43,292 nt of DNA from Nitrosopumilus sp. GTDB taxonomy: Archaea; Thermoproteota; Nitrososphaeria; Nitrososphaerales; Nitrosopumilaceae. The translations under genes were made by a program, and so were the position numbers. Under the pieces are notes generated by a model. It searched no databases, was not told where the DNA came from, and saw only the letters and a program-made list of their open reading frames with translations. The stretch spans positions 1-43,292 of the forward strand of contig NZ_JAILWA010000013.1 in assembly GCF_025699255.1 (NCBI RefSeq), in the 5' to 3' direction. Below are positions 15,836-21,555 of the stretch, one piece after another. Within the stretch, counting starts at the first letter, position 1. Every line of letters begins with the position of its first letter.

Positions 15836-17587
15836 TTAAAATAAACTGTTTGTGAGTTTTTTCAATGCCAAAATCTCTTCTTCTTCTTGTCTGATTTTTT
15901 TATCGATTACCCTAAGCATTGAATCATTCCAGACATGTTGAGAAAAGAAATTGTGTTTAGTATTTGCCAATTCAATCTCGTCATCTACTACTGTATCTTC
16001 AAGAAATTTAGTCACAATTACATCTGTAATCTTCAAAATTCTTGAATTTAGTTTGAAACTATGGAAAATGGGCTCTAATTTTCTTATATCTACTTTAAAA
16101 TCCCCTTTTGATTCAAGAATTTTTTTGTGCAGAATTCTAAAATATACTGCTACAAAGAATAATGTCGCATATCTTTTTGTTTTATGTCCACCTTGCTTTC
16201 CATATTTCAATGATTTCTTAGCAAATTCTTTTACAAGATATGGATACAACAAAATTCTGTAATCATCTTTTAGATTATCATTGAATATGTCATCATATTT
16301 ACTCCCTCTTGGAAGAAATTGAGCTGGTGAGCTGTATGCTTCTGTAGGTCTTTGTTCAATTCCTGCAACCAAAGATTGTATTGCATCTTTTGCAACTATG
16401 ACCTTCTTGTGATTGTCTGGAAGATAGTTGTTGTATATTGTATCTCCATCATATTCACATTGTTTTGATTTAGTTTTTGTATCAAAAGACCCTGCTTGTA
16501 TTTCATAAAAATAACCACAATTTTTTAATTGTGATTTAATTGATTTATGAAAATCCATTAACGAAACTAGATCTTTTCCTCTAACAGAATTCTGAGAATT
16601 TCTATATTTTGTAATATTGTTTTGTTCTTGTTCATCATCTGCTTTTATGATCGTTACTGTCATAGAACCTTCCATATTTTTTGTTCTTTTTGAATGATCA
16701 AGAATAGAATTAGATGTTTGAGCTCCATTGACGATTTGAGGAGCATGAAGTTCAATCATATTTTCTCCCAACTCTGAAAAATCGCTTACTACTATGGTAA
16801 TTCCATTATTGTAAAAGAAAAATTTACCTGGATTACTTTGTAATGTTTCTCTTAATCCTTTGTTTACTGTGGTCTTAAATTGCATCCATTGTCTAATGTT
16901 TGATTCAAAAACATAATCTCTATTCTTACTTACAAATTCAGTTAATTCACGTAATTTCAATATGCCTAAGATTGTATTTTCATGTCTGAGCATTCTTTCT
17001 AGTTTAATAGATGATTTTTTACCTGCTGCTGGCTTTTTTATCCTATCCCATAATTTTTGGATTATTACTTTTTGATCAATTATCTCTACTGTATCATCAT
17101 GATAGTCTACTTCTTGATCAGTAACATAACAACATTTTATCTTTAGATTTTTTTCTTTAATTTTTGTTACAAGCTGAGCGAGTTCGGGTCTCATCTTTAC
17201 AACATCTTTTGCCAGTAATCTCTTTGCATCTTCTTTGAATTTTGCTATTGCCTCAAGTGAATGTGATGTTCCATATTTTGATTGAAATAATCTGATTGTA
17301 TTATCAGAAAAATCTACTGGAAGATAAGCATCGATACCTAGATCGTTTGCACCGTCTACAATTGCATCTGCAGCATCGTCTTCTGTAGCCTCAAAAACTC
17401 TGGTTAAAATCCACTGAAGAAAGTTATTCCCTTTCTCAACCTCACTTTTTGAATTTTCTGCATATTCATGTATGCTTTCCTGAATATTTTCAGCAAATCC
17501 TTCTAGAGGAGGACTAGAATTTTTTTGAACTAATAATGTATGTGAGCCAGGAATGTATTCTAACAAACCATTTCCATTTTGAGACAA
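15836..17587 (-). CDS. AIPR-family protein (abortive phage infection, nuclease-like)
   Basis: A 583-residue protein matching the AIPR family (Pfam PF10592). The N-terminal domain has a PD-(D/E)xK-like core: DLGIDAYLPV (Asp82, Asp86) then LFQSKYG (Gln102, Lys104). The AIPR core lies at about 225-320, with NIRQWMQFKTTVNKGLRETL, FFFYNNGITIVV and IVNGAQTSNSI. Family members are linked to abortive phage infection and related nuclease defence, so DNA or RNA cleavage on infection is inferred. The TTG start is about 25 bases after a strong TATA box. No methylase or helicase partner lies beside it, so it would act alone. Confidence 0.82.
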   Translation of the reverse strand: MSQNGNGLLEYIPGSHTLLVQKNSSPPLEGFAENIQESIHEYAENSKSEVEKGNNFLQWILTRVFEATEDDAADAIVDGANDLGIDAYLPVDFSDNTIRLFQSKYGTSHSLEAIAKFKEDAKRLLAKDVVKMRPELAQLVTKIKEKNLKIKCCYVTDQEVDYHDDTVEIIDQKVIIQKLWDRIKKPAAGKKSSIKLERMLRHENTILGILKLRELTEFVSKNRDYVFESNIRQWMQFKTTVNKGLRETLQSNPGKFFFYNNGITIVVSDFSELGENMIELHAPQIVNGAQTSNSILDHSKRTKNMEGSMTVTIIKADDEQEQNNITKYRNSQNSVRGKDLVSLMDFHKSIKSQLKNCGYFYEIQAGSFDTKTKSKQCEYDGDTIYNNYLPDNHKKVIVAKDAIQSLVAGIEQRPTEAYSSPAQFLPRGSKYDDIFNDNLKDDYRILLYPYLVKEFAKKSLKYGKQGGHKTKRYATLFFVAVYFRILHKKILESKGDFKVDIRKLEPIFHSFKLNSRILKITDVIVTKFLEDTVVDDEIELANTKHNFFSQHVWNDSMLRVIDKKIRQEEEEILALKKLTNSLF

Positions 17588-19285: not shown

Positions 19286-19633
19286 GTGGATAGAATAAAA
19301 CGACTTTCATATGAAGTTCTAGATGGACACAAGTCTAAATTCGGAGAAGATTTCGCTGATAATAAAAAAGCCTTAGATCAAATTTCAATTGTACGATCAA
19401 AAGGATTGAAAAATGAGATTGCAGGATATATTACAAAATTCATCAAAAAAGAAATTCGTGAAGAAAAAGCAAAGCAGGCTAGAATTCAAGCATCTAAATC
19501 TGAACAACAAATTCAAGAACCCTCTGAAGTTGAGATAACTGAAGAAACAACCACTGAAGAAATTCCTGATGCTATTATTGATGCATCCTCTGAAACAGAA
19601 TCTTCTGAAACAAAAGAAGAAAAAACTGAATAA
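19286..19633 (+). CDS. rps17e: Ribosomal protein eS17 with acidic C-terminal tail
   Basis: Residues 1-62 match archaeal/eukaryotic eS17: RIKRLSYEVLDGHKSKFGED, then NKKALDQISIVRSKGLKNEI and AGYITKFIKKE. Archaeal eS17 normally ends there (about 60-70 residues). This one has a further 50 residues rich in Glu, Thr and Ser (around SEVEITEETTTEEIPDA). The start is GTG at 19286, 31 bases after the tatD stop. The acidic tail recalls the acidic N-terminal extension of S11 in this window. Confidence 0.9.
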   Translation: MDRIKRLSYEVLDGHKSKFGEDFADNKKALDQISIVRSKGLKNEIAGYITKFIKKEIREEKAKQARIQASKSEQQIQEPSEVEITEETTTEEIPDAIIDASSETESSETKEEKTE

Positions 19634-19672: not shown

Positions 19673-20446
19673 ATGTTTACTGTAAAGTTTGTAGGTGGAG
19701 CAAAAAAATCATTCCCAATGGAGCGTTTAAACATTGACAAATCTGAAATAACAATCCAAGAATTAATTATATTACTTGTAGATCTTAAGCCTAAAGATAC
19801 TCCTACTCTTGATACTGAAAATGTTTTAATTGCAATTAATGGTGCTGATTCATCTGCAATGAGTGGTAAATCCACAAAAATCAAAGATAATGATATTGTA
19901 AGTATAATTCCTATAATTCATGGTGGGGCATTAAATAGACTCACTTTTGAATTTTCAAAAAAACAAATTCAAGCCATAGAAATTAAAGACAAAACTTCAA
20001 TCAATGTACAATTTCTAGATGAACTTCGAAAAAAATTCCCCAAACTTGTAATCCAGGCAATTTCAAGCGATTTTATCTTAAATCAATATCATTTTAAAAA
20101 AATTATTTCGTTATCAATTGAATCTCAAAAAAATAATGTGTTGCTTTCAAATAAACTAGAGACTGACATTCTCATGAGATTTGCTTTAAATACACAAATT
20201 TCTAATGCGATAAAAAATGTAGGAATTAAATCCAACAAAAGTTTTGTTCTAGTTGCAATTGGAAACAAAAAAAATTTAAATTCATTATATGTTGAACTAA
20301 AACCATTTACTGTAAATTTATTCTTAAAAAATAATGAATTGTATCTTAGAAAATATTTTAAAATTACAAAAAAACATTTTTTTTCAACCTATTCAAAAAA
20401 TCCATTGGCCGATATTTTAATAGAAAAAGCATCTGTATTATTCTGA
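19673..20446 (+). CDS. MoaD/ThiS-like domain fused to KEOPS subunit Cgi121
   Basis: A 257-residue, apparently two-domain protein. Residues 1-85 look like a ubiquitin-fold MoaD/ThiS/SAMP domain (VKFVGGAKKSF at the start, VLIAINGADSS, then DNDIVSIIPIIHGG at the end), including the Gly-Gly used for adenylation or thiolation. Residues about 88-250 match Cgi121/TPRKB, with FLDELRKKFPKLVIQAISSD, the KLETDILMRFALNTQISNAI helix and NVGIKSNKSFVLVAIG. Cgi121 is the tRNA-binding KEOPS subunit for t6A synthesis. The Gly-Gly is internal, so it could act only if cleaved. Sua5 lies next door on the other strand. Confidence 0.75.
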   Translation: MFTVKFVGGAKKSFPMERLNIDKSEITIQELIILLVDLKPKDTPTLDTENVLIAINGADSSAMSGKSTKIKDNDIVSIIPIIHGGALNRLTFEFSKKQIQAIEIKDKTSINVQFLDELRKKFPKLVIQAISSDFILNQYHFKKIISLSIESQKNNVLLSNKLETDILMRFALNTQISNAIKNVGIKSNKSFVLVAIGNKKNLNSLYVELKPFTVNLFLKNNELYLRKYFKITKKHFFSTYSKNPLADILIEKASVLF

Positions 20447-20959
20447 TATACTTCTTTTAGTTTTTTCTGTACTGAGTATATCTGATTTTTTAAGAATGGA
20501 AATTCCTGTTTTATTCCCTAAAATTTCAATTAAAAGAACTTTATCTGGAAATTCTAGTGATACTTTACTTTTAATTTTATTTGCTATCTTTGTAATGATC
20601 TCTTTACTAGACAAGTCTGAGTTTCTTTTCTCAATTGAAATTCTATATGTTTCTTCTTTTGTAATTTGATTTGACATTTCTTCAACATTTTTGTCAATTT
20701 CATCTATTTTTGATTCAATCACTTTCTGAATTGGAATAATTCTTTTGCAATATCTTATACTCCATGGTTCATCAAGAAGCATTTCTTTGATTTTCCTTAC
20801 TACTTCTATCGGATCTAATATTGTTTCTGCAGTTAAGATCCCAGACATACTTGTAATTGTAACTTTGATATTCGAATCTCCTAATTCCCCTAAAATATCC
20901 TTTAATTCATCTTCTGTTTCTGGCTCTAGATGTCTTGGGCAAGTAATTATGAGATTCAT
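20438..20959 (-). CDS. THUMP-domain protein (Tan1-like)
   Basis: A 173-residue protein starting MNLIITCPRHLEPETEDELK, typical of THUMP RNA-binding domains. It has a second half around RISIEKRNSDLSSKEIITKI and VSLEFPDKVLLIEILGNKTG. It matches the Tan1/archaeal THUMP-only proteins needed for N4-acetylcytidine in tRNA, where the THUMP protein helps the acetyltransferase. No acetyltransferase is in the window. Its ATG overlaps the Sua5 TGA (ATGA, 20956-20959), so they are coupled. It overlaps the Cgi121 fusion gene by 9 bases tail to tail. Confidence 0.82.
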   Translation of the reverse strand: MNLIITCPRHLEPETEDELKDILGELGDSNIKVTITSMSGILTAETILDPIEVVRKIKEMLLDEPWSIRYCKRIIPIQKVIESKIDEIDKNVEEMSNQITKEETYRISIEKRNSDLSSKEIITKIANKIKSKVSLEFPDKVLLIEILGNKTGISILKKSDILSTEKTKRSISE

Positions 20960-21555
20960 GTTTGTAAAATTTCTTCTTTGTTTAAAGAACCTTCGCGGAT
21001 AATTTTGACTTCGCTATTATCAATTTCAACTATTGTTGATTCTCCTTTGCTATGAATAATTCCACCATCGACAAAAATATCATAATCATATAATTCCCTA
21101 ATGCACTTTTCTGGATCTGTACTTGATTGATTTCCAGATATATTTGCACTTGTACCTACAAGAAAATCACATTTTTTCAATAACTCTAATGTACATTTAT
21201 GATTAGGAACTCTAATAGCAATTTTATTTTCTAAATTTAATGATTGTTTGATTTTTTCATCAGTAACTTTTAAAATTAAAGTAAGAGGACCTGGCCAAAA
21301 CTTTTTAGCTATTTTTCTAGAAAATTTATCTAAATAAACAATTTTTTCTGCTGTTTCTAATGAATATGTTAAAACTGGAACTGATTTTGAAATGTTTCTA
21401 GATTTGATTTCATAGATTTTCTTAACTGCTTCTATGTTGTATGGGTTACAACCTATACCATAAACAGTATCTGTTGGATATACTATAATTCCTCCTCTTT
21501 TAATTATCTGTGAAGCTTTTTCAATCCCTTCATCATTACATGATACTTTTAACAC
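20956..21555 (-). CDS. tsaC: Threonylcarbamoyl-AMP synthase (Sua5/TsaC)
   Basis: A 199-residue Sua5/YrdC-domain enzyme that makes threonylcarbamoyl-AMP from Thr, bicarbonate and ATP, the first step of tRNA t6A. Visible motifs: GGIIVYPTDTVYGIGCNPYN, KSRNISKSVPVL, KFWPGPLTLIL, NKIAIRVPNH and GTSANISGNQSS. It is the short YrdC/TsaC form without the C-terminal Sua5 domain. The start is GTG at 21553-21555. The Cgi121 subunit of KEOPS, which uses the product, is encoded nearby on the opposite strand. Confidence 0.93.
   Translation of the reverse strand: MLKVSCNDEGIEKASQIIKRGGIIVYPTDTVYGIGCNPYNIEAVKKIYEIKSRNISKSVPVLTYSLETAEKIVYLDKFSRKIAKKFWPGPLTLILKVTDEKIKQSLNLENKIAIRVPNHKCTLELLKKCDFLVGTSANISGNQSSTDPEKCIRELYDYDIFVDGGIIHSKGESTIVEIDNSEVKIIREGSLNKEEILQT

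Follow-up and report, generated by a model that had tools for sequence, protein, structure and literature searches.

The open reading frame at 19673–20446 of the window (the whole 43,292-nucleotide stretch of Nitrosopumilus sp. DNA analysed here) encodes a ubiquitin-like (Ubl) domain joined, by way of an internal His-Gly-Gly (HGG), to the KEOPS subunit Cgi121; arguing by analogy with related systems, we think it probable that this protein is a precursor, from which a JAMM protease, cutting behind Gly85, would release an Urm1-like carrier / modifier and an equal amount of Cgi121. Makarova & Koonin had already described this fusion in 2010 from all Thaumarchaea then available (PMC2948915), and its recognition in an earlier note on this DNA is therefore a rediscovery; what we add is the likely, though by no means certain, role as a precursor, together with an ancestral gene cluster. 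The features concerned are:

19286–19633, forward strand: ribosomal protein S17e, upstream of the fusion gene (Pfam Ribosomal_S17e, 1.8e-18)
19673–20446, forward strand: Ubl–Cgi121 fusion gene (ORF; Pfam and NCBIfam matches; fusion conserved family-wide)
19673–19927, forward strand: N-terminal beta-grasp Ubl domain of MoaD/ThiS/Urm1 type, residues 1–85 (ThiS PF02597; AlphaFold2 topology; PDB matches to MoaD and Urm1)
19919–19927, forward strand: His83-Gly84-Gly85 (HGG in 35/35 fusions; HGG-stop in free homologues; weak AlphaFold2 block 81–90)
19928–19936, forward strand: variable three-residue junction, A86–N88, between HGG and strand 1 of Cgi121 (no invariant position in 86–100; start of PDB alignments)
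19937–20443, forward strand: Cgi121 (KEOPS subunit) domain, residues 89–257 (CGI-121 and NF011465 matches; PDB Cgi121 chains)
20438–20959, reverse strand: THUMP-domain protein, convergent (Pfam THUMP, 5.1e-9; convergent position conserved)
20956–21555, reverse strand: Sua5/TsaC (threonylcarbamoyl-AMP synthase), first step of t6A synthesis (Sua5_yciO_yrdC, 3e-54; TIGR00057 above cut-off)

Starting from an ATG, the frame runs for 257 amino acids plus a stop codon. Residues 5–85 match Pfam ThiS (PF02597; E 6.3e-9, 36.7 bits against a cut-off of 22.5) and residues 116–239 match CGI-121 (PF08617; E 2e-6, 28.4 bits against 25), with the NCBIfam equivalog ‘KEOPS complex subunit Cgi121’ (NF011465) scoring far more strongly (E 3.3e-42, 144.2 bits against 40); the Cgi121 match is also seen by sequence comparison. 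Structure prediction of both halves, proposed beforehand as a check, gave a beta-grasp Ubl followed by a Cgi121 fold: the AlphaFold2 model, built from a 90-row alignment, has a mean pLDDT of 95.4 and a pTM of 0.78, and its first half shows the beta-grasp order (strands 2–6 and 18–21, helix 28–38, strands 51–55 and 75–80). Compared with the PDB, residues 1–85 resemble MoaD and Urm1 chains at Z 10–12 (MoaD 6jbz_B, Z 12.2; fungal Urm1 7q5n_G, Z 11.6, 28% identity), and the chain from residue ~88 onwards resembles Cgi121/TPRKB at Z 12–17.7 (8k20_C, 17.7; 6wqx_A, 17.6; archaeal 7kjt_H, 15.1). Alignments to the latter chains begin at model residue 85–91, and Cgi121 proper therefore starts just ~3 residues past Gly85; the known solved Cgi121 chains share fold and profile match over residues 89–257, but are without an N-terminal Ubl. 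The weakest ten-residue block of the model, 81–90 (mean pLDDT 72), covers the HGG tail and the junction, the remainder being very confident. Profiles, prediction and PDB comparison thus concur on what the earlier note had read from the letters: a ubiquitin-like fold and Cgi121 in one frame, with a Gly-Gly closing residues 1–85 (HGG being residues 83–85).

Were the N-terminal domain a true sulfur carrier for molybdopterin (MoaD) or thiamine (ThiS), fused to Cgi121 by chance, it would also give a Pfam ThiS match and place MoaD among the closest folds; we nevertheless regard this as very improbable. The equivalog models for MoaD and ThiS both score far under cut-off on the fusion (for MoaD TIGR01682, 12.9 bits against 66.15), and MoaE has no match in the genome itself or in six other Nitrosopumilaceae, control genomes being positive; with MoaE absent, the Ubl is not the molybdopterin MoaD, and a role in molybdenum cofactor synthesis was rejected. 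The Gly-Gly sits inside the translated chain (residues 84–85 of 257) and not at its C-terminus, the position expected of a ThiS/MoaD/Urm1-type Ubl, which it would come to occupy only after cleavage.

The internal HGG is present in 35/35 aligned fusions, from the order and beyond, followed by a residue that varies (A in 14, S in 14, T in 3, and L, N, K and R in one each). Among 29 Nitrosopumilaceae sequences, a set that includes one split by a TGA (L030), H83, G84 and G85 are invariant and mean entropy is 0.24 bits over residues 80–85, against 1.83 over residues 86–100, where no position is invariant and the 15 residues past HGG drift; the Ubl otherwise averages 1.13 bits and Cgi121 1.33. The conservation signal therefore stops at the would-be C-terminus. 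This same point is where most separate homologues end: among the free Ubls linked to Cgi121 that have HGG, 27 in all, 18 terminate exactly there and 9 carry 1–7 extra residues.

Could the Gly-Gly simply be a structural relic, the Ubl having been captured by loss of a stop codon and the motif having no current role? The earlier note had allowed for this, and the finding that the split genes are ancestral and adjacent is compatible with it; the constancy of HGG, 23 invariant Ubl positions in the 29 sequences and an Ubl dN/dS of ~0.06–0.18 (~0.07–0.18 in five genus-level pairs), indicative of purifying selection, make it scarcely credible. The pattern as a whole, including a weakly modelled stretch in an otherwise confident structure that coincides with a free C-terminus elsewhere, would instead fit a tail that an E1 or a protease recognises.

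The fusion is a family trait. A search for it, as recommended in advance, covered 200 genomes sampled across the phylum, including 30 that we assign to the Nitrosopumilaceae; a full-length match was found in all 30 of the latter, and is free of internal stops in 29/30; it is therefore not an accident of gene modelling, and an artefact or frameshift is ruled out by the recurrence of the same fusion in many independent genomes. Across 300 genomes of the order, the lengths of the frames that match Cgi121 agree with a family-wide fusion. The one exception, G061 (loci L030 and L110), has a TGA one codon past HGG (HGGA-TGA-TTG) that splits the Ubl and Cgi121 frames, and at L093 (G383) the Ubl ends HGGGKNKRKL-stop, overlapping the Cgi121 frame; judged from sequence, both L110 and L093 are apparent natural fissions, though either may be a sequencing error.

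Outside the family the picture is mixed. Nitrososphaeraceae-like genomes (f47), as sampled, are fused at L094, L095, L097 and L098 and split at L096 and L099, and the other families of the order (f2, f42, f46, f50 and f52) are split. Elsewhere in the phylum a separate Ubl ORF lies directly upstream of Cgi121 (L034–L038, L048, L051, L117, L118 and L126) or stands further upstream, beyond a single intervening phosphoribosyltransferase gene (L040, L044, L047, L050, L113 and L122), while L046/L131 is apparently an independent fusion. In a concatenated Ubl + Cgi121 tree the fused forms nest among the split, all 11 outgroup loci are split, and five state changes are required, among them at least one fission (L110) nested within fused relatives. 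The sequences accordingly mark split, adjacent Ubl and Cgi121 genes as the ancestral state; since these persist elsewhere in the phylum, with a free Ubl usually ending at HGG, the fusion is best described as a derived loss of a stop codon in an old cluster. Related genomes with two separate proteins had been named in advance as a finding that would count against the fusion; they do exist outside the family, but reveal where it came from and do not refute it.

The Ubl also has a second fusion partner: in f50 it is joined, HGG kept, to the phosphoribosyltransferase that precedes Cgi121 (L106:494–1333, forward strand), and seems to fuse with whatever gene comes next. A phosphoribosyltransferase directly upstream of Cgi121 is found in many Thermoproteota (L050, L113, L122, L114–L129), and a ParB-like gene sometimes precedes the Ubl. 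Adjacency of Ubl and Cgi121 was considered as a universal rule and rejected: of 15 further Cgi121 loci sampled beyond the order, picked from hits without an in-frame Ubl, 10 have no Ubl close by and several have a phosphoribosyltransferase instead.

S17e, on the same strand, is predicted to be co-transcribed with the fusion gene; on the other side, the THUMP gene overlaps the last 9 bases of the fusion gene and separates it from Sua5. The earlier note had placed Sua5 next door on the opposite strand, which holds for its strand and proximity but not for immediate adjacency, and the t6A context stands, Cgi121 and Sua5 both being t6A components. At every one of the 30 loci L003–L032 the gene is preceded by S17e and converges with THUMP, and each Sua5 that was detected lies on the far side of THUMP. 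Several other families of the phylum show a similar order: S17e adjoins the Ubl, and Cgi121 is faced by Sua5, THUMP or both. From gene order we recognise here an old cluster, S17e–Ubl–(phosphoribosyltransferase)–Cgi121 facing THUMP–Sua5.

How, then, might the fused protein function? In the scheme that we consider probable, an Urm1/MoaD-type Ubl ending in His-Gly-Gly would be made as the N-terminal part of Cgi121, and one of two JAMM metalloproteases would cleave past Gly85 to yield an Ubl with a free C-terminal glycine. The E1, itself an Ubl–E1 fusion, would adenylate the freed Ubl, which might then carry sulfur to the Ncs6/TtuA-type tRNA thiolase, modify proteins, or do both, whilst the freed Cgi121, with ~3 extra N-terminal residues, would join Kae1, Bud32 and Pcc1 in the t6A enzyme. 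The fusion would thereby fix equal synthesis of an Ubl and a tRNA-modification subunit that were formerly operon partners. The scheme builds on the domains, the fold, the invariant HGG, the ancestral split operon, a gene complement that includes E1, thiolase, JAMM and KEOPS, and the lack of MoaE and of a detectable free Ubl gene; we infer the cleavage, the choice of JAMM, a part in thiolation or conjugation, and any influence on t6A. Of the known components, Cgi121 of M. jannaschii binds Bud32 and recruits tRNA to KEOPS through its CCA tail (PMC7718258), and thiolated tRNA-Lys(UUU) in Haloferax requires the archaeal Ncs6 with SAMP2 (PMC4048286).

The genome holds a matching set of genes. With a sensitive profile (E<=0.1) only two Ubl matches were detected, Ubl–Cgi121 and Ubl–E1, and no free Ubl gene. 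The latter fusion (C4, L002:1351–2685) provides the one E1 found and carries an internal GG of its own (AVAGGSEELS, ILPAVAGGSEELS); as an alternative source of Ubl, it means that the Cgi121-fused Ubl need not be the thiolase's carrier. ThiS matches in 61 family genomes fall nearly all in frames of 245–320 aa (the Cgi121 fusion; one of 419) or ~440–500 aa (the E1 fusion; one of 814), some in slightly shortened frames near those lengths, with clear exceptions in G061 (89 aa) and G420 (92 aa). At L136 (G420:C13) the Ubl of E1 type stands alone, its ORF closing precisely with PAVAGG-stop and lacking E1 sequence downstream, which may be a rearrangement or an assembly effect. There is one Ncs6/TtuA-type thiolase, and KEOPS is represented by Kae1, two Pcc1-family genes and, next to Kae1, an ORF for a Bud32-like kinase that was identified by eye and not by profile. 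Two Prok-JAB (JAMM) proteases have an intact HSHP-x6-S-x2-D (HxHx7SxxD) motif and the upstream Glu. JAMMs occur in 40/41 family genomes and are common, too, in relatives with split genes; as most of these have them, JAMM presence is not fusion-specific and was rejected as a marker of it.

Cleavage after HGG by a JAMM protease is suggested by the behaviour of similar fusions: MoaX is cut between Gly82 and Ser83 (PMC4326299), SAMP1–MoaE is cleaved by HvJAMM1 (PMC4443979), MoaD–MoaE by DrJAMM (PMC8832034) and SAMP precursors by CsJAMM (PMC6043591). In MoaX and MoaD–MoaE (M. tuberculosis, Deinococcus and some Thermoproteota) an N-terminal Ubl with an internal Gly-Gly is likewise joined to a partner; there, cleavage past GG has been demonstrated and is required for activity, whereas for Ubl–Cgi121 it is proposed by analogy. 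The partner also differs, being the Ubl's own enzyme MoaE in the one case and a KEOPS subunit, with MoaE absent, in the other. Urm1 (eukaryotes, Sulfolobales) and the SAMPs (Haloferax) have the beta-grasp fold, the E1 partner and the GG in common with our Ubl but are separate proteins ending in GG; an S17e neighbour is likewise reported for Sulfolobales Urm1 (PMC2948915).

The main rival is a protein that stays fused, the Ubl serving KEOPS as an integral module for regulation or docking—akin to permanent SAMPylation—that recruits E1, thiolase, proteasome or ribosome, with the GG kept for binding of partners to the tail; the conserved HGG could indeed be retained for a binding role in the uncut protein. 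Stability of the fusion across the whole family and purifying selection on the Ubl agree with this, as does the suggestion of Makarova & Koonin 2010 (PMC2948915) that KEOPS may be regulated by SAMPylation. We judge it unlikely all the same: relatives make the same Ubl as a protein of its own that stops at GG, the fissions fall at or just past GG, the residues beyond are variable, and E1 chemistry requires a free C-terminus. Cleavage might alternatively be partial and regulated, the uncut fusion being an inactive store of KEOPS and Ubl function that a JAMM cut activates. Residual uncut MoaX, possibly reflecting condition-dependent processing (PMC4326299), and inhibition of MoaE by attached SAMP1 (PMC4443979) offer precedents; the sequence, though, gives no sign of regulation, and since t6A is essential long inactivation would seem costly, leaving this distinctly unlikely.

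Returning to the cleaved precursor, a wider version holds that all ThiS-family Ubls in Nitrosopumilaceae are made only as precursor N-termini (Ubl–Cgi121 or Ubl–E1), such that the entire Ubl pathway would require JAMM proteolysis, and the Cgi121 fusion would couple supply of Ubl for wobble-uridine thiolation / protein tagging with t6A-complex assembly; this we put forward tentatively, and would sooner expect it to fail than to hold.

Eukaryotic ubiquitin–ribosomal protein fusions also join an Ubl precursor to a translation-related protein and are processed by DUBs. They involve another Ubl subfamily, another partner and DUBs in place of the JAMM proposed here by analogy; were our reading true, ammonia-oxidising archaea would nonetheless have an analogue of them, tying translation machinery, t6A and Ubl supply together at the gene level. 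Makarova & Koonin 2010 described the same architecture, adjoining S17e in Nitrosopumilus maritimus, and deemed regulation of KEOPS by SAMPylation, or a joint function, possible; the available portion of that paper makes no mention of a Sua5 or phosphoribosyltransferase neighbour, the split tandem form, HGG invariance or JAMM processing (PMC2948915). The Ubl–E1 (MoaD–MoeB) fusion is known from the same source and from a survey of archaeal fusions and fissions, which reports it in Thaumarchaeota and does not mention Cgi121 (PMC11237513). Of the earlier interpretation, then, the domain identities, folds, internal Gly-Gly and t6A context survive; the relic is disfavoured, and the fusion and its proposed link to KEOPS had already been published (PMC2948915). 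Release from a precursor would explain, in a way that can be tested, what an Ubl does on a KEOPS subunit, a question that dates from 2010, and the S17e–Ubl–Cgi121 cluster facing THUMP–Sua5 across the phylum is independent evidence of an old archaeal link between Ubls and tRNA modification.

A few kb from the t6A cluster, at 15836–17587 on the reverse strand, the window also encodes an AIPR-family protein (PF10592, 4e-60; PADLOC AbiU, 3.5e-48), possibly a phage-defence gene.
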